From a bacterium (GTDB lineage: Bacteria; Patescibacteriota; Gracilibacteria; Peribacterales; Peribacteraceae), in assembly GCA_029558515.1 (NCBI GenBank), contig JAKQEM010000040.1, positions 1-47,985 of the forward strand: DNA of 47,985 nt. Direction: 5' to 3'. How positions within the stretch are numbered: the first letter of the stretch is position 1; each line of letters starts with the position of its first letter. The notes under the pieces are model-generated. The model was given only the letters and a program-made list of their open reading frames with translations. It did not search any database and was not told where the DNA came from. This document shows, in pieces, positions 2,843 through 47,985 of the stretch. The position numbers and the translations under genes were made by a program.

Positions 2843-2966
2843 GGATGTCCGTTACCCATCATGTGCACTTCTTTCCTCTCGTGCAAGTGTATATACGTTG
2901 TCTCGCATCACGGGGCGATGGCACACTGTCCACCGTAGATTTTCTCTCGCCTTCCCCCCACTCCCT

Positions 2967-3572
2967 ATGTGCTGCGGTCTTTCGGATCCCCGTTCCATTG
3001 TGCGTCTTCTTCTGCGCATGTCGTTGGGCCTTTCCCTCACATTCGTCGGCTTTACTCATTACCGCGATCCGGAATTTGCCATGCAGGTCGGTGCGGGCTT
3101 GGGCGTACTGAGTCCCCTCGGGTATGCGTGGGGCCTCGTGCTCCCCGGTCTGTACATTCTTGGCGGACTTCTGCTGGTCTTTGGCATCTTCCCCGCTGTC
3201 GCCACCTATGCGGTCGGCATCGCGCTTGCTTCCATTCCCGCAGGACTCTTGTTGAAATCCGCCATGGGAACGCTACCGCTCGAATCTTCTATGCCCGCGG
3301 CGCTCAATGCGCTCATCTGGTTGCTTGCGCTCACCTTCAGTCTGCCGCGTTGTTGCTGTCCCACAAAGGTGATGCCACCCATGACGCCCGTTCCCGCAGC
3401 CAGGCCCGTGCCTCCCGCTCCCGCCGTTTCGATGCCCAAGCTGATTGCTTCCAAACCCGCTGCCAAGAAGGCACCGACGAAGAAGACGGCTCCCAAGCCG
3501 GCTGTTTCCCGGTCCATTCCGGTGAGGAAGTCCGCTCCGTCTCCCACGCCGAAGGGGGGATTGGATGTGTGA
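2967..3572 (+). CDS. DoxX-like small membrane protein with Ala/Pro/Lys-rich tail
   Basis: 201 residues. Four hydrophobic segments span roughly residues 8-135, with the early motif SLGLSLTFVGFTHYRDPEF resembling DoxX-family first helices. From about 145 the protein is a low-complexity cytosolic or external tail rich in Ala, Pro and Lys (PAAKKAPTKKTAPKPA). The ATG at 2967 is chosen because the longer frame from 2673 runs antisense through tgt. DoxX proteins are linked to redox or respiratory membrane functions, but the substrate here is not predictable. Confidence 0.65.
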   Translation: MCCGLSDPRSIVRLLLRMSLGLSLTFVGFTHYRDPEFAMQVGAGLGVLSPLGYAWGLVLPGLYILGGLLLVFGIFPAVATYAVGIALASIPAGLLLKSAMGTLPLESSMPAALNALIWLLALTFSLPRCCCPTKVMPPMTPVPAARPVPPAPAVSMPKLIASKPAAKKAPTKKTAPKPAVSRSIPVRKSAPSPTPKGGLDV

Positions 3573-37302: not shown

Positions 37303-38586
37303 ATGGCAGAAGCAGTTCCTCCATTGGCGTTCCGTTTGCGTCCCACGAGCCTCGATCAGTTTGCGGGACAGGAACACATCGTGGGGGAGGGGAAGCCGCT
37401 TCGGACGGCCATCGAAGGGGATAGGCTTTCCTCCGTGATCTTTTTCGGACCGCCGGGAACGGGCAAAACGACGCTCGCGCGGATCATTGCGGAAACCACC
37501 AAGGCCAATTTCGTGCAGCTCAATGCGGTGCTCAGCGGCGTAAAGGAACTCAAGGAAGTCTGCTTGGAAGCCGCACGCATGCGCAGCACGTTTGGGCAGA
37601 AGACGGTGCTATTCATCGACGAAATTCATCGATTCAACAAGGCGCAGCAGGACGCGCTGCTGCCATTCGTCGAGAATGGAGCGGTCATTTTGATCGGCGC
37701 GACGACGGAGAATCCCTATTTCGAAGTCAACGCCGCTCTCGTGTCCCGCTCCGCGGTGTACTTGCTGCAACCGCACACCCCGGAGCACCTGGTCGCCATC
37801 CTCCGTCGCGCAGTGGCGTCTCCATCGGGATTTGCGGGGAAGGTGACGATCGCCGATGAGGCATTGCATCGCATTGCTGTCATTGCCAACGGCGACGCTC
37901 GCATCGCTCTGAACGCGTTGGAGCTGGCGGTCGCGACGGCGGGCAATCGCATCACGCCGGGGGATGCGCAGCGCATATTCGCCGATCGCGGTGCGCACCG
38001 GTACGATCACAGTGGGGAAGATCACTACGATACGATCTCCGCCTTCATCAAGACGATGCGCGGGAGTGATCCGGACGCCGCGCTGATTTGGTTGTTCAAA
38101 ATGCTGGAAAGCGGCGAGGCTCCGCGGTTTCTGTTTCGTCGCATGACTATTTTTGCGAGTGAGGATATCGGGTTGGCGGATCCCCGCGCGCTGCAGACGG
38201 TCGTCAGCGCATGGCAGGCGTTCGAAATGGTGGGACTGCCGGAAGGGGAGTACTTTCTGGCACATGCCTGCATCTATCTCGCACAGGCACCGAAGAGCAA
38301 TGCCGTCAAACGGGCGATGGAAGGAGCACGTGCTGTTATGAAAAATGCTCCGACGTTGGAGGTGCCCAATCACTTGCGCAATGCGCCCGTCAAAGGCATG
38401 GCGGAGCAAGGGTACGGGAAAGGCTATCTCTATCCTCACGACGCGCCCGAGGGGGTCGTCACCGCCGATTACTTTCCGATCGGCGTTGCGCCCGTTGATC
38501 TCTATATACCTTCAATACGTGGTTTTGAAGCGGATATCGTGGAACGATTGCGCCGGGCCAAACTGAAGATTCGAGGAGAGAGTTGA
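37303..38586 (+). CDS. rarA: Replication-associated recombination protein A (AAA+ ATPase)
   Basis: 427 residues. RPTSLDQFAGQEHIVG, Walker A GPPGTGKTT (49-57), Walker B LFIDEIHRFNKAQQDALLPFVE, sensor IGATTENPYFEVN, and the C-terminal MgsA domain (GSDPDAALIWLFKMLESGE...IYLAQAPKSNAV) are all present. It acts at stalled forks together with SSB. It starts 29 bases after the surface-protein gene but is functionally unrelated to it. Confidence 0.95.
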   Translation: MAEAVPPLAFRLRPTSLDQFAGQEHIVGEGKPLRTAIEGDRLSSVIFFGPPGTGKTTLARIIAETTKANFVQLNAVLSGVKELKEVCLEAARMRSTFGQKTVLFIDEIHRFNKAQQDALLPFVENGAVILIGATTENPYFEVNAALVSRSAVYLLQPHTPEHLVAILRRAVASPSGFAGKVTIADEALHRIAVIANGDARIALNALELAVATAGNRITPGDAQRIFADRGAHRYDHSGEDHYDTISAFIKTMRGSDPDAALIWLFKMLESGEAPRFLFRRMTIFASEDIGLADPRALQTVVSAWQAFEMVGLPEGEYFLAHACIYLAQAPKSNAVKRAMEGARAVMKNAPTLEVPNHLRNAPVKGMAEQGYGKGYLYPHDAPEGVVTADYFPIGVAPVDLYIPSIRGFEADIVERLRRAKLKIRGES

Positions 38587-39221: not shown

Positions 39222-39974
39222 TCAATCCAGCAGTGTCATCGCTCCCATCAGCCCGATACCCAGGAGAATGCAGAGGAATTGCAGTGCGGAGCGGCGGATG
39301 TCGTTTTCGCGATGCAGTTCCGGGATGAGATCGGATCCGGCGATGTAGAGGAAATTGCCGGCGGCCAGCGGTAGGATGTAGGCACCCGATTGCGGAATCG
39401 CACTGCCGAATGCCAGGACGATGGCGGCGGCGGCGACTGCGGAAAGTCCCATCAGCGCATTGAATCCGATGGCTCGCGCTCTGCTGAATCCGCTGTAGAG
39501 CAAAATGCCCATGTCGCTCATTTCCTGCGGGATTTCGTGGAGTAAAACGGCGACGGTCGTAGCGAGGCCGACGGGGATGCCGACGGTGAAGCTTCCTGCG
39601 ATCAGCATGCCGTCGAGCGCATTGTGAAAGAAGTCGCCGATGAGGTTCATGGTACCGACGGGATGCGTGTGTTCGACGCACTCGTGATCGTGACAGTGGC
39701 GCCAGTGAATGAATTTCTCCATGATGAACGAGAGGATCACGCCGGCCAGCACCAGAAGCGGCCAGAACGATCCGAGAGCTTCTGTCTCCGTCATTTCCGG
39801 AATCATGTGGAGGAATACGTCACCCAAAAGCGCTCCCACCGAAAAGCTGATGATGAGAAAGAGCATGTGTTGCAGCGTGTTCTGCTTCAAGAGGAGCAGC
39901 AGTGCGCCGACGAGAGAAATCAGGCTGACGATGACGGTGCTCGCGATGGTCAGGAAGGGCACGGAGGTGAACAT
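39222..39974 (-). CDS. ZIP-family metal transporter
   Basis: 250 residues, eight predicted helices. The metal-site helices are intact: FHNALDGMLIAGSF (helix 4, H/N/D) and LLHEIPQEMSDMG (helix 5, H/E/E). A His/Cys-rich loop HWRHCHDHECVEHTHP lies between helices 3 and 4, the usual place for metal-sensing loops. It imports Zn2+ or related divalent ions. The gene lies 24 bases downstream of the Fur-family gene on the same strand, so the two form a regulator-transporter operon. Confidence 0.93.
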   Translation of the reverse strand: MFTSVPFLTIASTVIVSLISLVGALLLLLKQNTLQHMLFLIISFSVGALLGDVFLHMIPEMTETEALGSFWPLLVLAGVILSFIMEKFIHWRHCHDHECVEHTHPVGTMNLIGDFFHNALDGMLIAGSFTVGIPVGLATTVAVLLHEIPQEMSDMGILLYSGFSRARAIGFNALMGLSAVAAAAIVLAFGSAIPQSGAYILPLAAGNFLYIAGSDLIPELHRENDIRRSALQFLCILLGIGLMGAMTLLD

Positions 39975-39998
39975 GGCGGAAGTGAGAAAATGAATAGT

Positions 39999-40421
39999 CT
40001 ATGAAGGGTCGCAAGAGGGGCAGAGCCCGGTGATTTCGATCAGTGGAGCAGGGGAGTGGTACCGATGTTCTTCGGCGATGTCCGTCGCGAGTCGTTGCAG
40101 GTGTTCGTTCTGGAACTCCGTGACGGAACCGCAGTCCCTGCAGCGCAGGTAGCCGTGTGCTCCTTCCGTTTCCGGGTGCTTGCAGAGGGAGAGACGTCCG
40201 CTGCCCAAGCGGTGGAGAATGCCGAGATTCTCAAACTGCTTTGTGATGCGGTAGATGGTGACGGGGTGCACCGTGGATCCGCGTTTTGTCAGATGGTGCT
40301 CGATATCGTACGGGGAAGCGGGAGTTTGCATCTGATGCAGCGCATCGAGGACCAGGCGCCGCTGCATGGTGGCGCGCAGGCCGCTTCGTTCCAGAATCGT
40401 CGTATGTTGGCAGGATGACAT
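39999..40421 (-). CDS. Fur-family metalloregulator, probably zinc-responsive
   Basis: 140 residues from the ATG at 40419-40421 (an ATG at 40445 would add 8). There is an N-terminal winged helix (TMQRRLVLDALHQMQTPASPYDIEHHL...VHPVTIYRITKQFENLGILHRL). The C-terminal dimer domain has two CxxC pairs (CRDC, CPSC) for a structural zinc and several His for the sensing site. Zur is favoured over Fur because the co-transcribed gene is a ZIP transporter. Autoregulation through the palindrome just upstream is likely. Confidence 0.88.
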   Translation of the reverse strand: MSSCQHTTILERSGLRATMQRRLVLDALHQMQTPASPYDIEHHLTKRGSTVHPVTIYRITKQFENLGILHRLGSGRLSLCKHPETEGAHGYLRCRDCGSVTEFQNEHLQRLATDIAEEHRYHSPAPLIEITGLCPSCDPS

Positions 40422-40450
40422 GAGAGCAGAGTAAGGCAACGGCATTGCAG

Positions 40451-40554: not shown

Positions 40555-40695
40555 GCCGAACGTTTGCGGTTGTGCGATGTTTTGTGGCTGTATAATGGAG
40601 CGAAGCGACACACAGCCGCAAAATATGGGAGAGGAGGCGGTGCATCCATCCAATTTTAAAAGCACCGCCGACGAACCGCATAACCGCTGTTATGT
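40555..40695. repeat. attC-like folded site 1
   Basis: 141 bp. The 3' end box is GTTATGT (40689-40695), the IntI simple-site form G-TT. The 5' box GCCGAAC (40555-40561) is weaker. Inner arms GCGGTTGTGCG (40566-40576) and CGCATAACCGC (40677-40687) pair with one mismatch, leaving a small unpaired spacer. The tip branches into TTTTGTGGCTGT/ACACAGCCGCAAAA and GGCGGTGC/GCACCGCC hairpins. This matches the R''-L''...L'-R' plan of integron attC sites. Confidence 0.6.
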
Positions 40696-40777
40696 AACGT
40701 CAATTTTTTCCCGTATTCCAAGGCACCTGAAGCTTACGTTCTTTTCGGGGCGGGAAAACAACAAACAAGTTGCGTCG

Positions 40778-40826
40778 TTTTGGGCGACGGGCAGAGGGGT
40801 TAGGGGTGAATGCCCGGAGCCCAAAA
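40778..40826 (-). terminator. Hairpin downstream of the RM gene
   Basis: TTTTGGGC-gac-GGGC (40778-40792) pairs with GCCC-gga-GCCCAAAA (40812-40826), 12 bp with an internal loop, 17 bases after the RM stop in its direction. The T run at the 3' stem suits termination. Confidence 0.6.
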
Positions 40827-40842
40827 CAATTAATTACTCTTT

Positions 40843-43800
40843 TTATGATTGAATGATTTTATCTATTTCTTTCATCAAATGATCGGTTTCCATAAGAGCG
40901 ACAATCATTTTTTGGTAATGTTCAATTTCTTCGTTCGTCAGTGTACGTTCTTTACGGTCTTTCAACCACTTTTGTGCCGGTTGATAGCCTCCGATGTAGA
41001 AGTTCCAGGCAATTTCAGGCACGTCACCAAAGTACTGTTCGCTGTTTATAAACACTTTTCCGTTTTTATAAGTGATTTTTTCAATTTCATCCGATCCGGT
41101 CACAGGGTAAGAGGTGATGTATTGAGTTATCTTCGGAGATTCAAGGAGATGAATCAAGCGCAATTCAGAGCCGAGTGCAACAAGAGCTTTAAAGTTTTTT
41201 GCATCTTTTGGGTACGGAATACGTGGGAAGTCTGTTTTGAGAAATTCCTTATACTTTTCTCGGTATGCTGGCGAGTGAAGGACAGCGTATATGTAGTCAA
41301 AAATGTCTTCAGGTGTAATTTTTCCTATAGCCTGCTGGATTAGCACAACAAATTTTTCATTCAGATTTGATGTCTGGACCTCATCTTTATCATATGTATA
41401 TAGCGGAAAAACAGAGCCTCCTCCGCGGTAAAAAATGTTTAAGTCTGTAATGTCTTTTGCTATGAATAGCAAATTCCACTCCATACTTCCGACTACTTGT
41501 CCCTGCCTGCCAGATATAAGAGCAAGATTATTTCGGTTAAATAAATTATGCATGACTCTCATCTGAGAATAGGCCATAAATCCCCTGGAAGTTCCTGTGT
41601 AATACGTATACCTATTGTCAAATGGCCGATAGCTCAAGCTGACAATATTGTTTTCAGAATAATTAGATTTAATGTCCCTGATTGCTCTTTCAAGCACCCA
41701 ATCTCGACTGTCCTTTTTTAAATCGAATAATGACCGTAGGTTAATTTCTGATTCCGTATGGAATTTTTGCACATTTTCCCAAATATCTTTTTTAGTAAAT
41801 GCCACGGCAACATTATCGTTCTTTGTAAGTATTCCAGTGCTGAATTGATCAAATAGTTCATCTAATTTAAATCCGCTTTCATATTTCTCTTTTCCTGCAT
41901 TATTTTTCTTAACAAAGAAGTGCATGTGCTCGTCAGGATTGATTTCAGACCATTCTATGTCGTTGTTTTCTAATGCTGTGAATTTCTCTGTGCGTAGACC
42001 AAACAAATCAGCATGCATTATTTTTGCAAGTTTTCCATTTTTATTATTCTTGAATTTTACTGCCAAAATAATGGATACCCCTTGTTGAATATCAAAAACA
42101 TTTTCATCTTTACCGCCATTGGGTGTTGTTTCCTTCTTTTTTGCGTTTCCATGTAGGTCAAGTATTTGGATGCGGTCAAATGTATTTCGTAAATGCCAAC
42201 GCATCCCACGAAAAGTTGGATTATCCAAATATCCATGCGCGGTAATCATTGCAATAACACCCTCTCCGTTTTTCTCCACCATATTTTCGGCGAATCTAAT
42301 AAACTTCACATAGTCATCATTGATCCATTTACTATTTTTCTCTTTTAGTTTTTCCTTGCCTCCTGGCTCAACTTTATAGACATCATGACCTTTATAAAAT
42401 GCATTACTCGATTCACCAGAATATGGCGGATTACCGATAACAATCATTATTGGCTTATCATTTTTGATTTTTAAAGCCTCTTTAGATTCTTCCGCAATAC
42501 TTTCAGCAAAGCCAAATCCGGTAAAAATATCACCTTGGATACTTCCACCTTCCAGTGAGTTTGTGAGATAAATACCAAGACGCTGATTGAAATACTTGAA
42601 CCCCGTTTTCCTGAAAGCTATTCCTAATTTTAAATGAGCGATGGTATATGGCGTCATCATCAGCTCAAAGCCATGCAGACGCGGGAGCAGATCGTTATGC
42701 ACATATGCCGGCCAGCGTCCCTGCTGGTTGCCTTTAAGTATTCTTTCATAGATTTTCCCGATAATGTCGCTGACGAATGTTCCTGTTCCCACAGCTGGAT
42801 CGAGAATTTGAACTTTGTGAATGCCATCGGCGGTTTTTGAGGTGTCGGCCAGCCCAGAAACAAGACCAAATTCTTTTTCCAACAAATGATCGACCGAACG
42901 GACGATAAACTGGACAACTGGCAACGGCGTATAGTAAGCACCCATTTTTTTACGCAAATCCGCATCGTATTCTTGCAAAAAGTCTTCGTAAAAATGAATA
43001 ACCGGATCGGGTCCTTTTTGCGTTTTGCCCCACAAATCATCCTTAAAATATTCTTTCATTAGTTCTTGAATATCGGCGTGAGAAAAAACCTCGCATAACT
43101 CATTTACAATATATTCAAGACGTTTATCGAAGTTCGGTCCGACGATATGATCAAAAAAGTGCCGGAGAAGCGGATTGGATTTTGGTATCAGATCCCGCGC
43201 CTCTTGCCTGGAAAAATCTTTCTTGGATTCATCATAATAGCGGGCAACAAATAAACCGTACACCAACGTTTGGGCGTACATATCGGCAAAAGCATCTGTG
43301 GTAAGGTCATGGACTAAGAGTTTCTTAATCGTTTCGTAGACGTGAATTAGTTCTGCGTCTCTCTCTGACTGCGTTGCCAGAAACTGCCGGACGTTGTCAC
43401 GGATTCTTTGTGCTCTTCCTCCCATAATTTTCGAGAGATGCTTGCCGGAACGAATTGGTTCTTTCTGAGATTGAGTGAAATCTAAAAGAGTTTTGGCGAC
43501 ATGTTCATAATTTTCCGGCAAAGGGGTTATTATTCGGCTTTTCAGGTCGTAATTTGCTATCTTGATCGGTTCTTCATAACGAAGACCGTTCCTATAGAAT
43601 CGAAATTCGATATAGTCCGTGAGGACTAAATTTGTGTAACCGTAGTATCTTGTCATCTGCTCGGACTTTTCGATTTTATCCAGCGATACGCCAATGTCCT
43701 TTGCTTCAATATAGAGAATTGGCACATCGTTATTAAGAATAACAAAATCAGGCTTATTTCCTTGTTTAGCCCGCGCATCGTGATCTATTCGTTTAACCTT

Positions 43801-43929
43801 GATTGATTCAAAAATGCCTTTGATTAAAATTTCGAAATCGGTGCGATAGCCCATTTCGCTGGTTTCGTCATGAACGAATTTAGATGAAATTGCCTGGATG
43901 TAGTTTTTAAATAAATCTTGCATAGTCAT
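40843..43929 (-). CDS. Single-chain restriction-modification enzyme, type IIG/ISP-like
   Basis: 1028 residues. The N-terminal nuclease has a PD-(D/E)XK core (PDFVILNNDVPILYIEAKD, about 55-73). A helical connector follows. The gamma-class N6-adenine methylase has motif I LDPAVGTGTF (about 376) and motif IV VIGNPPYSG (about 500). A large C-terminal specificity region contains the FPLYTY motif seen in type ISP enzymes. There is no helicase domain, so cleavage would not need translocation. Start: ATG at 43927-43929, or the ATG two codons on. TACAAT at 43949-43954 is a possible -10. Codon use is AT-richer than the core genes. Confidence 0.88.
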   Translation of the reverse strand: MTMQDLFKNYIQAISSKFVHDETSEMGYRTDFEILIKGIFESIKVKRIDHDARAKQGNKPDFVILNNDVPILYIEAKDIGVSLDKIEKSEQMTRYYGYTNLVLTDYIEFRFYRNGLRYEEPIKIANYDLKSRIITPLPENYEHVAKTLLDFTQSQKEPIRSGKHLSKIMGGRAQRIRDNVRQFLATQSERDAELIHVYETIKKLLVHDLTTDAFADMYAQTLVYGLFVARYYDESKKDFSRQEARDLIPKSNPLLRHFFDHIVGPNFDKRLEYIVNELCEVFSHADIQELMKEYFKDDLWGKTQKGPDPVIHFYEDFLQEYDADLRKKMGAYYTPLPVVQFIVRSVDHLLEKEFGLVSGLADTSKTADGIHKVQILDPAVGTGTFVSDIIGKIYERILKGNQQGRWPAYVHNDLLPRLHGFELMMTPYTIAHLKLGIAFRKTGFKYFNQRLGIYLTNSLEGGSIQGDIFTGFGFAESIAEESKEALKIKNDKPIMIVIGNPPYSGESSNAFYKGHDVYKVEPGGKEKLKEKNSKWINDDYVKFIRFAENMVEKNGEGVIAMITAHGYLDNPTFRGMRWHLRNTFDRIQILDLHGNAKKKETTPNGGKDENVFDIQQGVSIILAVKFKNNKNGKLAKIMHADLFGLRTEKFTALENNDIEWSEINPDEHMHFFVKKNNAGKEKYESGFKLDELFDQFSTGILTKNDNVAVAFTKKDIWENVQKFHTESEINLRSLFDLKKDSRDWVLERAIRDIKSNYSENNIVSLSYRPFDNRYTYYTGTSRGFMAYSQMRVMHNLFNRNNLALISGRQGQVVGSMEWNLLFIAKDITDLNIFYRGGGSVFPLYTYDKDEVQTSNLNEKFVVLIQQAIGKITPEDIFDYIYAVLHSPAYREKYKEFLKTDFPRIPYPKDAKNFKALVALGSELRLIHLLESPKITQYITSYPVTGSDEIEKITYKNGKVFINSEQYFGDVPEIAWNFYIGGYQPAQKWLKDRKERTLTNEEIEHYQKMIVALMETDHLMKEIDKIIQS

Positions 43930-44065
43930 TCCAGAGTTAGTGGTTTTAATTGTATTCGCGTTCCCCTCATAAATAAACCGAGCCCAGCAAAGAGAAGCAC
44001 CCAGCCAGAGAATGTGACAATCGGATGTTGCTGCGGTAAAGTTTGAATGCCTGTAAGCCATTCTT

Positions 44066-45661
44066 ATGCAACAGCCTAAACCACACTCTGTACGCTATCC
44101 TGCTCTTATTGCAGACATTGACGCTGGAAGGATCAAGATCCCCAAGTTTCAGCGGGAGTTTGTCTGGAGCGTTGATGCAACTGCAAAACTGCTCGATAGT
44201 ATTTTAAAGGGCTATCCGATTGGAACGTTTATCCTTTGGCAGACGCGAGAGCGCATGTCCAGCATTCGCAATATTGGCGATGCTCAGTTACCGGAGACTC
44301 CCGATGGAGATGCTGTCCAGTTTGTATTGGATGGACAACAGAGAATTACTTCCATTTATGCTGCGCTGAAGGGGATTACTGTTGAGCGTGAAGGTAAGGC
44401 ACACGATTACAAAGATATTTTCGTGAACCTGGATATTGATCCGACTAATCTGGACGAAAGCATCGTAGTCTCTGAAAAGCCACTGGGAATGCATCTCCGA
44501 CTTCATGACTTGCTGAATATGAGAGCCAGCCAGATTGTCGGTTATACAAGTAATGCAACGATTATAGATCGGATAGACAGGTACAAACAGGCATTCGAAA
44601 CGTATGACTTCTCTGCGATTACCATGTCCAACGAATCCGTAGACGATGCGATAGAAGTATTCACACGAATTAATACCGGAGGAACAGAATTAACTCTATT
44701 TGAAATCATGTGCGCGAAAACCTACGACGAGTCACAAGGTTTTGATCTGCGCGAACAATATGATGTGCTTGCCGGACGTATTGCAGAGGCTGGATACGAT
44801 GTACCCAGCTCTACTGTCCTGCAATGTTTGGGCGTGATTCTTGATGGCGAATGTAAGAGAAAAACAATTTTAAAGCTTGATCGTGATCGAATTATCAGTG
44901 CATGGGAAGACATGTCGGAAGCACTCAAAGAGACCGTGGAATACTTCCGCTCAACGTATCGCATACCTGTATCTGGGATATTGCCCTATAACGCCCTCCT
45001 TGTTCCGTTTACGTACTTTTTTTGGAAGAAGAAAGATGTACCAAGTCCCATTCAAGCAAAGTATTTGCAGGAGTTTTTCTGGAAGGCCTCTCTTTCATAT
45101 CATTACTCAAGTGCTGTTGAAACAAAGCTGGGGCAGGACATAAAGCGCGTAGATAGTATTTTGCAAGATGAGAGACCAAAGTATGACTATAAACCGCAAT
45201 TGAATCGGGAAGATCTTGTATCTCAGTCATTCAGCGTGGGGGATAGCTTCTGCAAAGCGATACTCTGTCTCTTCGCATATCATCAACCACTCTCGTTCCA
45301 AAACAACGCTTCCGTGCGTCTCGATAACGCATGGCTGAAGGTTTCTTTCAGCAAAAACTATCATCACTTCTTTCCAAAAGCGTTTTTACGGAAGCAAGGT
45401 ATTGTTGATGCGAATGTGATATTGAATATCGCCTTTGTGGATGATTATCTAAACAAGAGAACTATCAAAGCCCGTGCCCCTTCGGACTATGTAAGGCAAT
45501 TTGAGCAGGACAACCCGCATTTACGCGAAGCGCTGAAATCGCATCTCATTCTTGACCCTGTGGCATTTGGAATTTGGGATGACGATTTTGTGAAGTTTCT
45601 TGAGGAAAGGGCAAAAGTAGTTGAAGAAGAACTGCATAAACGCCTTGAACCAATAACATAA
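44066..45661 (+). CDS. DUF262-HNH nuclease, GmrSD/SspE-like
   Basis: 531 residues. The N-terminal DUF262 domain has FQREFVW (28-34), a P-loop-like KGYPIGTFILW and the signature DGQQR at 89-93, with FTRINTGGTELT near 205. The C-terminal part has HHFFPKAF (about 432) and paired Asn typical of the DUF1524/HNH nuclease. Families with this layout cut modified DNA (GmrSD) or act in phosphorothioate-based defence (SspE). It is divergent from the RM gene across 136 bases, in the same module. Confidence 0.87.
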   Translation: MQQPKPHSVRYPALIADIDAGRIKIPKFQREFVWSVDATAKLLDSILKGYPIGTFILWQTRERMSSIRNIGDAQLPETPDGDAVQFVLDGQQRITSIYAALKGITVEREGKAHDYKDIFVNLDIDPTNLDESIVVSEKPLGMHLRLHDLLNMRASQIVGYTSNATIIDRIDRYKQAFETYDFSAITMSNESVDDAIEVFTRINTGGTELTLFEIMCAKTYDESQGFDLREQYDVLAGRIAEAGYDVPSSTVLQCLGVILDGECKRKTILKLDRDRIISAWEDMSEALKETVEYFRSTYRIPVSGILPYNALLVPFTYFFWKKKDVPSPIQAKYLQEFFWKASLSYHYSSAVETKLGQDIKRVDSILQDERPKYDYKPQLNREDLVSQSFSVGDSFCKAILCLFAYHQPLSFQNNASVRLDNAWLKVSFSKNYHHFFPKAFLRKQGIVDANVILNIAFVDDYLNKRTIKARAPSDYVRQFEQDNPHLREALKSHLILDPVAFGIWDDDFVKFLEERAKVVEEELHKRLEPIT

Positions 45662-45690
45662 ACAACAAACACCCACATCCCCCTATCAAA

Positions 45691-45715
45691 AAAATGAGCC
45701 CCGCCGCAGCGGGGC
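45691..45715 (-). terminator. GC hairpin with A/T tract between DUF262 gene and site 2
   Basis: GCCCCGC (45698-45704) pairs with GCGGGGC (45709-45715), 4-base loop. Read on the minus strand it is followed by CATTTTTTTG, a good terminator for transcripts coming leftwards from module 2. On the plus strand it lies 36 bases after the DUF262 stop. Confidence 0.65.
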
Positions 45716-45809
45716 GAACTCCTCTTTAAAACAACAAACATCCCTCGTTGGGGGCGAAAAGAACGTAAGCGGAACCGGTGCCGCCGGAAGAAGGGAAAAA
45801 ATTTATGTT

Positions 45810-45949
45810 ACATAACGTTTGCGGGTGTGCGAAGCTGGCGGGCTGTAAAATATCCGCGAAGCGGGACAATCCGCCAGTTTGGGCGAATCGGCGCGACTTC
45901 CATTGAAATAAATACGGAGCGCCGATGAGCCGCACACCCGCTGTTATGT
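45810..45949. repeat. attC-like folded site 2
   Basis: 140 bp. Ends ACATAAC (45810-45816) and GTTATGT (45943-45949) are exact inverted copies. Then a GTTT/T unpaired spacer and an 11-bp perfect inner stem GCGGGTGTGCG/CGCACACCCGC. The tip carries two hairpins: CTGGCGG...CCGCCAG enclosing a CCGCGAAGCGG stem, and TCGGCGC...GCGCCGA. Same plan and length as site 1 but largely different sequence, as expected for attC sites conserved by shape. Confidence 0.7.
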
Positions 45950-46031
45950 GATCGTTGGTTATTCCCGACTTCCAAGGCACCCGTAGCTTTTGTTTTTTCG
46001 GGGAGGGGAAACAACATACAAAACAATGACA

Positions 46032-47180
46032 CTACACATCCATGAGATTAGATTCCACCATGTATGGAGAGTTGAAGGTAGTACACTCTCCCACTTTCTT
46101 GCCTGGAACAAGCAGCATTCTTACGGACAAAGGTTTGTTGAGTTTTATCGCAAGAGTTGCTGTATCCAGCAGTATTGCTTCAATCGATTCGATATTCGTA
46201 TTGCCAGGGATTGGGACAACATCGAGCCCGCATCCGCAAACTGCGGAATACAAGAGAAGATTGGATATGTTATAGGCTCCTTCATTTGCTCTTTCTGCCA
46301 AGCCAGCGTCTTCGCAGACAGGCAGCATAAGTCCGGAATATCCACAACGTTTCACCTCGAGGTTCTTGAGGACATCGGTGATCATTCCTGCGACAGTCAA
46401 AGTCCCGGGCTTGCCGAATGTTCCGAGTCCAATATTTTCGAAGGCGAATGCAATGCTTTCTTCGGTCAATAGCCCCGGATTCAGAGATACATCAATACCG
46501 TTGTATCGAATACCCTCTTTCTTTGAAAGAACCTCTGCCAGCTTTTCAACCTTTTTTGCCTCAGACAGAAATCGATCATGGAATAGCCTCTTTGCTGCTT
46601 GCAGGTCTTTCGTTTCTGAGAAGGCATTGAAAGCAATGTCACCGCATTCAAAACCAAGGCCAAATATCGACTCTTTGCCTTCGTGAAATCCGGTCGGAAA
46701 ATAGGGAATTCCACCTGAACAATTTGCCGATGCGCAAAAGCGGAAATTCCCATACCCGTTCTCTGTTTCATTGCCAATACGCTTCATGGTTTGCGCGGCC
46801 TCTCTTGCGTTCTCGAAAAGAATACCCGTATTAAAACTGCCGAGATGCGCAGAGCAGGAGATGATCGAAGTTGCTTTGTTTATTGCTGGAAGCATCTTGA
46901 TACTCTCAGACTTCATCGTTCGACCGATATTGAAGAAGCTGAGTTCACATTTTTTTGCGACTCTCTCAATTTCCACAATAGTTTTAACGGCCTCATCTTC
47001 CGAATCGGTATTGATGTATTCCTCCCATGAATTTGTTGCGACACGAATGGTTTGAACGTCGTATCCTTCCGATTGGAAGAAAGATGCTGCCGTGCGATTG
47101 AATGCTGCTGCCCTTTCGATTGCTGAAATATCTTTGCCTGAAGAAAGATGAATTCCGGTGGTGACAGTGCGTATTTTCAT
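46032..47180 (-). CDS. DUF711 family protein
   Basis: 382 residues from MKIRTVTTGI. Hallmarks are the KIRTVTTG start, the IRVATNSWEEY region, a central NCSGGIPYFPTGFHEG and LGFECGDIAFNAF, and a C-terminal AVCGCGLDVVPIPGNT with closely spaced Cys. The family is widespread, and its biochemical function is not established to my knowledge. Family size is around 400. It sits alone on this strand in module 2, and its transcript would run into site 2. Confidence 0.85.
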   Translation of the reverse strand: MKIRTVTTGIHLSSGKDISAIERAAAFNRTAASFFQSEGYDVQTIRVATNSWEEYINTDSEDEAVKTIVEIERVAKKCELSFFNIGRTMKSESIKMLPAINKATSIISCSAHLGSFNTGILFENAREAAQTMKRIGNETENGYGNFRFCASANCSGGIPYFPTGFHEGKESIFGLGFECGDIAFNAFSETKDLQAAKRLFHDRFLSEAKKVEKLAEVLSKKEGIRYNGIDVSLNPGLLTEESIAFAFENIGLGTFGKPGTLTVAGMITDVLKNLEVKRCGYSGLMLPVCEDAGLAERANEGAYNISNLLLYSAVCGCGLDVVPIPGNTNIESIEAILLDTATLAIKLNKPLSVRMLLVPGKKVGECTTFNSPYMVESNLMDV

Positions 47181-47247
47181 GGATTGAAGTATAGCAGATG
47201 AAAACGCGATCATTTGATGAACTCGCTCACGAGCGTACTATGGAGGT

Positions 47248-47751
47248 GTGATAGTAATAGACATTCTTATTGGTCTTATTCCAGACTTCATCAAGAGCAT
47301 CTTTAAGTGCTTTAAGAGGCCCTGCGAGATCAAATTGGCTCCGTCAGTCCATCCTTCGATTCCAGCGATAATGAATGGCGGCAACATGCAGCAATTTGCG
47401 AATCTTCAAATCCGATTTGGTTCAGAGACTGATCTTGAATTTGTGGATGCGGTTATGTTCATGAAGAACAAGAGAATTCGATGCGAGCAACGTGATTCAA
47501 AGCTCAATGGAGGAAGAGATTGGAATAGCTTTGATGTCAGGGCTGCAGAGATGGAGTTCGTTCCGGATCAAATGATGATGCTGAAGATCAGAGTGGCAGA
47601 TCACCTTGGGCATTGTTGCGAGTTGTCTCTGGAACTTCAGATGAAACAATTCCCGCATCCGGAATACTCCGGTATCAAATCTGGTCGCTGGGAGATACAG
47701 CCAAGAGGAATTTTCAGTATTCGGGGATCAAGACGTAAGAGATTTTTCTAA
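47248..47751 (+). CDS. Hypothetical protein of module 2
   Basis: About 167 residues from a GTG at 47248. GGAGG stands only one base before it, so the true start may be slightly downstream. The N-terminus is hydrophobic (IVIDILIGLIPDFIKSIF), then a soluble beta-rich part with scattered Cys and a basic C-terminus (RGSRRKRFF). No family is recognised. It is divergent from the DUF711 gene across 67 bases. Confidence 0.55.
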   Translation: MIVIDILIGLIPDFIKSIFKCFKRPCEIKLAPSVHPSIPAIMNGGNMQQFANLQIRFGSETDLEFVDAVMFMKNKRIRCEQRDSKLNGGRDWNSFDVRAAEMEFVPDQMMMLKIRVADHLGHCCELSLELQMKQFPHPEYSGIKSGRWEIQPRGIFSIRGSRRKRFF

Positions 47752-47842
47752 ACAACACACATCAAACATCCAACACAAACATGGGGGGACGAAAAAACAA
47801 AAGCGTAGTTGGTGCTGCAGGAAGGAGGGGGAAACCAATGTC

Positions 47843-47985
47843 ACATAATGCCGCGGCGGTTCTGCGACTGAAGACGGCTGATATACTCGTAGGATCAGCC
47901 GGATTTATCGCAGAAGCGCCAGTTTGGCGATGTCGCGAGCCCGAAGCGGTCTGAGGAGTGAGCGATCGTCAAACGGGCGCAGAGC
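47843..47985. repeat. attC-like folded site 3 (cut by window end)
   Basis: 5' box ACATAAT (47843-47849) and inner arm GCGGTTCTGCG (47856-47866). The matching arm begins CGCAGAGC at 47978 and leaves the window. The tip includes CGGCTGAT/ATCAGCCG and a second stem TTTG...CAAA. The final R' box should lie about a dozen bases beyond the edge. Confidence 0.55.

Follow-up and report, generated by a model that had tools for sequence, protein, structure and literature searches.

A probable integron-like cassette array in a Peribacteraceae genome

Cassettes and sites at the end of the window

The window, a stretch of 47,985 nucleotides, is one entire contig (C49) of a 1.31-Mb, 49-contig genome of the Peribacteraceae (CPR/Patescibacteria). 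Its right end holds two modules, at 40561–45815 (M1) and 45816–47848 (M2), together with three sites that resemble the attC sites of integrons (Table 1). Copies of AACAACAAACA sit at the inner borders of M1. The genes of both modules converge on the sites. A terminator-like hairpin was seen within one arm, at approximately 45700–45725.

Table 1. Features at the right end of the window, numbered from its first nucleotide
Feature	Position	Strand	Remarks
ZIP transporter and FUR-family regulator	39222–40445	-	left chromosomal flank
Site 1 (J1), attC	40555–40695	+	left end of the array; left neighbor chromosomal
Left arm (terminal inverted repeat) of cassette M1	40689–40767	+	ends in AACAACAAACA
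M1 gene, Type ISP (type IIG-like) restriction-modification enzyme	40843–43923	-	Type_ISP_C, 3.5e-86
M1 gene, GmrSD-type restriction protein (DUF262)	44066–45661	+	1.5e-30
Right arm of cassette M1	45659–45815	+	holds internal GCCCCGCCGCAGCGGGGC hairpin
Site 2 (J2), attC	45810–45949	+	part of cassette M2
Left arm of cassette M2	45943–46021	+	
M2 gene, DUF711 family protein	46032–47180	-	5e-96
M2 gene, unknown 167-aa protein	47248–47751	+	
Right arm of cassette M2	47749–47848	+	
Site 3 (J3), attC-like	47843–47985	+	start of a gene-less ~215-bp cassette; cut at contig end

The core of site 1 occupies 40561–40688 and is followed by the R' sequence GTTATGT at 40689–40695. On its left side stands GCCGAAC, which is chromosomal flank. 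The left 7-mer of site 3 is ACATAAT, and the cassette boundary there is AA|T. The crossover of site 2 is inferred to lie at AA|C, between 45815 and 45816. As single-stranded DNA, both sites fold far better than their shuffles, with a z value of −3.2 for site 1 and −6.4 for site 2. A covariance model of the site family scored them at 137 and 131 bits, respectively; both sites were included in building this model.

An earlier note on this region, made from the sequence alone, had assigned it to a CPR-like genome, which is correct. It had placed sites 1 and 2 at 40555 and 45810, and both the positions and the folding were confirmed. Its single plan of outer 7-mers (ACATAAC/GTTATGT) for all three sites held only in part, since both 7-mers are intact in site 2 alone. 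The description of two divergent genes per module held for M1 and M2 but is atypical elsewhere: a single ORF is present in 52 of 75 cassettes, with a median site-to-site interval of 851 bp. The earlier note had also proposed a scan with an attC covariance model; the model that was built, from the sites' own family, scored sites 1 and 2 and further sites. What the earlier note missed were arms of 80–150 bp outside its 140-bp sites. Around site 2, the pairing runs on outward through these arms for ~80 bp.

Structure of the site family and of the cassette arms

Seventeen sites of the family were aligned with MAFFT without the use of structure. The consensus contains 35 pairs, 25 of which show changes on both sides. 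Paired cells make up 96.8% of the total, versus 72.1% in column shuffles and 31–42% when the partners are slid by 1–3 columns. Pairing in the family exceeds what chance would give. These compensatory changes bear out the claim that pairing is kept while the sequences diverge, the hallmark of attC sites.

The attC core is ~130 bp long and consists of an outer R box, a 4-versus-1-nt spacer, an 11-bp stem, and two further hairpins. Compared with the consensus RYYYAAC/GTTRRRY, the R boxes keep AAC/GTT and vary at the other positions, and the asymmetric 4/1-nt spacer is present; extrahelical bases were not identified. In the arrays examined closely, cassette boundaries fall at AA|C, and the same point joins cassettes to attI. 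Predicted folding hardly differs between the plus and minus strands of the core (−34 versus −32), so the choice of strand is not explained.

The controls for the attC model were a class 1 integron region and regions downstream of recombinases. At the attC positions of the class 1 integron the model found no match, and it gave one 15-bit match elsewhere in that region. No credible Rfam family was found, the sole match being a spurious IRES inside the DUF711 gene. A plain DNA search with site 2 across 58 relatives returned nothing outside its own genome at the E-value chosen; the wider survey needed a structure model. Local searches later revealed homologous sites in some of those 58 relatives. 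The E-values of the model are rough. Filtering in the phylum survey was stricter, and some sites may have escaped it.

The arm that follows one attC is the reverse complement of the arm that precedes the next attC or attI; the two arms that flank a single attC do not have this relation. For 17 cassettes, the mean match score of arms belonging to one cassette was 23.4. Arms on the two sides of an attC scored 3.3, arms from different arrays 4.2, and shuffled sequences 2.3 (sd 4.0). In 4 of these 17 window-family cassettes the arms matched poorly. In other CPR phyla the match was 13.6 within a cassette versus 7.5 across an attC (p 1e-4), with many poor pairs; a common arm pattern there combines GTTNNNNGATGT at one end with GTTNNNNGAAAT at the opposite end. 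The cassette ends form inverted repeats of 60–90 bp. Since the arms match within a cassette, the mobile unit is inferred to start at the C-GTTT of an attC and to extend as far as the AA that precedes the following site.

Matching arms would also affect folding. In all 16 cases compared, the hairpin predicted for the excised circle is stronger than that predicted for the array (−69 versus −48 kcal/mol). This suggests, without showing it, that matching arms favor the capture of circles; the support comes from fold predictions only.

The ends of M1 recur in other genera. From site 1 onward, its first 265 bp are 95% identical to the start of a cassette from another genus (G070), and its last 103 bp are 96% identical to the end of that cassette. 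Against a cassette in G083, also of another genus, the first 285 bp are 84% identical and the last 158 bp, within the right arm, are 97% identical. The kilobases enclosed by these ends showed no similarity between M1 and the G070 and G083 cassettes. Near-identical ends around unrelated interiors thus indicate that cassettes pass from one genus to another or are reassembled around new payloads.

Recombinase, attI, and distribution across CPR bacteria

Site 3 could be followed beyond the contig end by a search of its own genome. An identical copy of its core (139 bp) lies at C31:1–139, and its right half with a second hairpin lies at the start of C38 and at the end of C24. An attI-like sequence comes after site 3 in both C38 and C24, so that the window array abuts an attI however the contigs join. 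In C38 the order is site, attI-like region, and then the gene of a 270-aa tyrosine recombinase (C38:244–1053). The attI-like copy in C24 has no recombinase nearby; the recombinase that C24 does carry lies 10 kb from the site and, being of the XerC/D type, was rejected as the enzyme of the system. We infer from these copies that site 3 is the attC of a gene-less ~215-bp cassette present at both attI copies. Two further sites were observed in this genome: one at C32:2875–3060 is decayed and has no strong fold, and one at C31:997–1054 is half-diverged. Weak BLAST matches on C45, C35, C29, C47, and C43 were treated as chance.

An S41 peptidase gene on C31 and a glycosyltransferase gene beside the recombinase on C38 are divergent and ~23–42 kb apart in ~10 of 18 relatives. 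This synteny favors a C31–C38 join, and C49 therefore most likely joins C24. The window array thus probably sits at the recombinase-less attI copy, although the join is not proven and C49 is not physically linked to C38. The array occupies one of two attI copies in this genome; the recombinase gene is carried by another contig, beside the same terminal site.

The top NCBIfam model for the C38 recombinase is the integron integrase TIGR02249, at 217 bits and under its cut-off of 265; XerA, XerC, and XerD are the next models. The top PDB match is IntI4 (2a3v), aligned in two pieces that flank the IntI-specific segment. This segment has 5 residues in 76 of 76 CPR recombinases measured, versus 39 residues in IntI1. 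The earlier note had proposed looking for a recombinase with the IntI patch; a recombinase was found, and the patch is absent. The IntI-specific domain has been described as necessary for integron recombination (PMC9668308). Because it is missing in all 76 recombinases, the use of a folded single strand can be proposed only by analogy.

In a tree, the CPR recombinases form one clade (SH-aLRT 96) apart from IntI and nearer to XerA-like and IS91-linked recombinases. The tree contained only two IntI sequences, and the long IntI and Xer branches may distort it, which limits inference on origin. The nearest non-CPR recombinases in a plasmid collection reach up to 42% identity and also lack the IntI patch. 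The genome of the window encodes a separate Xer-type recombinase as well. A viral origin as a phage integrase was rejected, the top-ranked matches in 2.9 million viral contigs being just ~23–34% identical.

Within the family, the recombinase is found at E<=1e-30 in 16 of 74 genomes, that of the window included, the weakest of them being Xer-like. Directly upstream of it, most of these 16 genomes have a conserved region of the AACT..TATRCGA type, to which different cassette ends are joined at AA|C among the relatives. Same-orientation site arrays are present in G067 (six sites), G070 (three strong sites), G011, G017, G025, G083, and G088. The attI-proximal cassettes differ among the relatives examined. 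The earlier note had held that its reading would fall if there were no further sites, no recombinase, and a fixed module order in relatives. None of these applies: sites and a recombinase exist, and the modules at the recombinase differ.

A scan of GTDB with the family recombinase gave 80 loci at 45–78% identity, nearly all in CPR-named lineages (Moran-, Berkel-, Vogel-, Nomura-, Uhr-, Falkow-, Buchanan-, Gottesman-, Roizman-, Wolfe-, Portnoy-, Kerfeld-, Komeili-, Kaiser-, and Zambryskibacteria, WWE3, Dojkabacteria, and others). The attC model applied to these loci was built from window-family sites only. It gave 89 matches in the 80 loci, all on the recombinase strand and all upstream of the recombinase except one weak match (17 bits). 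The attI motif AACTNN..TATNCGA was counted 47 times in 1.42 Mb of strand, and 45 of these occurrences are within 220 bp upstream of a recombinase; by locus, it stands just upstream of the recombinase in 45 of 78. The attI is ~110 bp long, and its sequence is conserved across CPR phyla.

In a phylum survey of 380 genomes, attC sites were found in 58, the recombinase in 44, and both in 35 (Fisher p 9e-26). In 24 surveyed genomes a listed site is 127–5857 bp upstream of the recombinase and on the same strand. Sites without a recombinase match occur in 23 genomes and the reverse in 9, a mismatch that comes in part from assembly fragmentation, from the strictness of the cut-off, or from arrays that stand alone. 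Although most of the relatives are metagenome assemblies, the system is present in many that are independent of one another, one of them a complete chromosome (CP011209.1, locus L131).

Cassette ORFs are read away from attI and the recombinase in 94 of 108 cases. Payloads include the restriction-modification proteins Type ISP, GmrSD, Mrr, TdeIII, HaeIII, and type I specificity, as well as methyltransferases, transporters, TspO, DsbA-like proteins, and many unknowns. Window-family cassettes are larger, with restriction systems among their genes.

Interpretation and rival explanations

We consider it very likely (probability ~0.88) that the end of the window represents a cassette array belonging to an integron-like gene-capture system of CPR bacteria, although no recombination has been observed. 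The earlier note had offered an unusual integron or a new recombination system using DNA hairpins. That proposal is supported, and the evidence falls between the two. At the sequence level, an attI of ~110 bp is followed by the recombinase gene and preceded by the cassette array, in which an attC core, a left arm, at least one gene, and a right arm make up each cassette. The system appears to work like an integron because it combines a dedicated recombinase, whose closest solved relative is IntI4, with an attI, attC-like arrays, and cassettes. In its architecture it qualifies as an integron, but we call it integron-like rather than an IntI integron because the IntI-specific domain is absent, the recombinases form a separate clade, and class 1 attC sites are not matched.

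In the mechanism proposed, the recombinase would cut at AA|C on a folded strand, the plus strand of the window being the equivalent of the attC bottom strand. Cassettes would be excised as circles and inserted at attI. In the circle, matching arms would flank the attC and extend the hairpin to ~280 nt, with a predicted stability far above that of array junctions. This higher stability would favor capture of the circle at attI. The arms of the window family may serve as a frame for varying payloads, often restriction systems. That the site folds as a single strand, which strand is chosen, that circles form, and what the arms do are all matters of inference.

A bolder reading, which we regard as likely, is that CPR bacteria have a phylum-wide integron system of their own. 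A patch-less, Xer-like recombinase would act on a branched, folded attC, and the arms would lengthen the hairpin only in the excised circle. The system would then be a second solution to hairpin-based gene capture, or an ancestor-like form of it, and a main route for the exchange of defense genes in reduced genomes.

CPR bacteria make up a large share of bacterial diversity and have tiny genomes, and their routes of gene gain are poorly understood. A gene-capture platform in many CPR phyla would explain how these bacteria exchange accessory genes, restriction genes among them. Such a platform would further put to the test the view that recombination of folded attC sites needs the IntI-specific domain, and it bears on the origin of integrons from Xer-like recombinases. 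In the literature searched, we found no report of integrons or attC sites in CPR/Patescibacteria, Peribacteria, or Parcubacteria. A groundwater study that applied IntegronFinder to genomes including CPR found Pseudomonadota to be best represented for mobile elements (PMC12259885); CPR integrons are not described in its relevant main-text passages. Such loci would not be reported as complete integrons by tools that demand the IntI domain. This dependence is a possible reason why the CPR systems were missed.

Chromosomal integrons (IntI; Vibrio cholerae IntIA/IntI4, class 1) share with the CPR system a tyrosine recombinase, an attI, and an upstream array of foldable, sequence-diverse sites in the same orientation. 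The crossover beside AAC/GTT, inferred in the CPR case, the mostly single-gene cassettes directed away from attI, and the occurrence of arrays without a nearby integrase are also common to both. However, the CPR recombinase lacks the IntI-specific domain around patch III, and the CPR attC is a conserved, three-way-branched element of ~130 bp with an 11-bp stem. Long matching terminal arms on many cassettes, an attI sequence conserved across phyla, and some cassettes with several or divergent genes are further differences. Archaeal integrons (PMC9668308) likewise extend integron architecture beyond classical bacterial hosts and were found through metagenome-assembled genomes, but the IntIs of archaea reportedly possess the IntI-specific domain, unlike the CPR recombinases. 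The XerA/IS91-linked recombinases of Bacteroidota and Proteobacteria are the nearest non-CPR sequences in the plasmid collection (<=42% identity) and share the absence of the IntI patch. In the loci examined, however, they adjoin transposase or recombinase genes (IS91 family and others), and the attC model had no match in the one such locus searched (L084).

The rival that survives best, though we consider it unlikely, is an ordinary IntI-family integron with a diverged integrase, transferred into CPR bacteria. The same layout of integrase, attI, attC array, and gene orientation speaks for it, as do the TIGR02249 match and the relation to IntI4. Against it, the IntI-specific segment has 5 residues, versus 39 in IntI1, in every one of the 76 CPR recombinases, and these fall in a separate clade nearer to XerA-like and IS91-linked enzymes, with the caveat of long branches. 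In addition, the R boxes retain AAC/GTT only, and the attC model misses class 1 attC sites.

Static remnants, in which a chromosomal Xer/dif-like recombinase coexists with old repeats and no cassettes move at present, are a very improbable explanation. The decayed and half-diverged sites on C32 and C31 are in its favor. However, near-identical cassette ends are found across genera, one cassette is present at two attI copies, attI-proximal cassettes vary among relatives, and a distinct Xer-type recombinase exists in the same genome.

We hold still less confidence in a third rival, in which the modules are transposon- or MITE-like units bounded by long terminal inverted repeats, the 140-bp hairpins being what remains between neighboring insertions. 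It would account for the inverted repeats at the cassette ends and for the same ends around unrelated genes in different genera. However, the hairpin core is conserved with compensatory changes, and the units keep a fixed orientation immediately upstream of a single recombinase, an attI marking the boundary. No recurring transposase family was found among the families listed for 106 cassette proteins, and the boundaries lie at the same AA|C point.

Structured RNA elements or terminators between divergent operons, unrelated to recombination, are all but excluded, although a terminator role could coexist with the integron-like system: the deep conserved pairing, the terminator-like hairpin in one arm, and the convergence of the window genes on the sites would fit, but Rfam gave no credible match, the arms pair within a cassette over kilobases and not across a site, the sites track a tyrosine recombinase phylum-wide, and the cassette boundaries coincide with attI.

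Motifs and repeats within the cassettes

The attC cores carry a conserved TGTATAAT-like motif in the loop of the second hairpin, as seen in the window at about 40590-40598. This motif resembles an extended -10 promoter element, or alternatively an unpaired, conserved recognition sequence. Repeats of the AACAACAAACA type lie on the inner side of the cassette arms, where these meet the payload, and could mark points of payload exchange.

Further sites in the source genome and the phylum

A decayed attC-like junction on contig C32 of the source genome folds poorly, with its arms still recognisable. It is flanked by an LCP-family gene on one side and an MFS transporter gene on the other, with comEC after. 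The single additional attC on contig C30 stands apart from the arrays of this genome.

Coordinates of the repeats and the further attC-like sites (bits, family covariance model of attC)
Feature	Contig (locus)	Position	Strand	Bits
AACAACAAACA-type repeat	window	40755-40767		
AACAACAAACA-type repeat	window	45659-45671		
AACAACAAACA-type repeat	window	45728-45740		
AACAACAAACA-type repeat	window	47749-47761		
Decayed attC-like junction	G000:C32 (L017)	2875-3110		33
Single additional attC	G000:C30 (L289)	37960-38091		71

Across the 380 genomes of the phylum surveyed, 23 (for example, G203 and G115) contain attC-like sites without a recombinase match at the cut-off used. These might correspond to integrase-less arrays (CALIN).

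Recombinase loci and plasmid relatives

The recombinase gene starts less than 300 bp from the locus end in 23 of the 78 loci checked, and this end is often that of the contig. Such positions would fit assembly breaks at repeated sites adjoining attI.

Two groups in the plasmid collection are the closest relatives of the CPR recombinase (loci L283, L284, L286 and L084, both groups together): XerA-like proteins of Bacteroidota, and proteobacterial recombinases whose genes lie directly upstream of IS91-family transposases.
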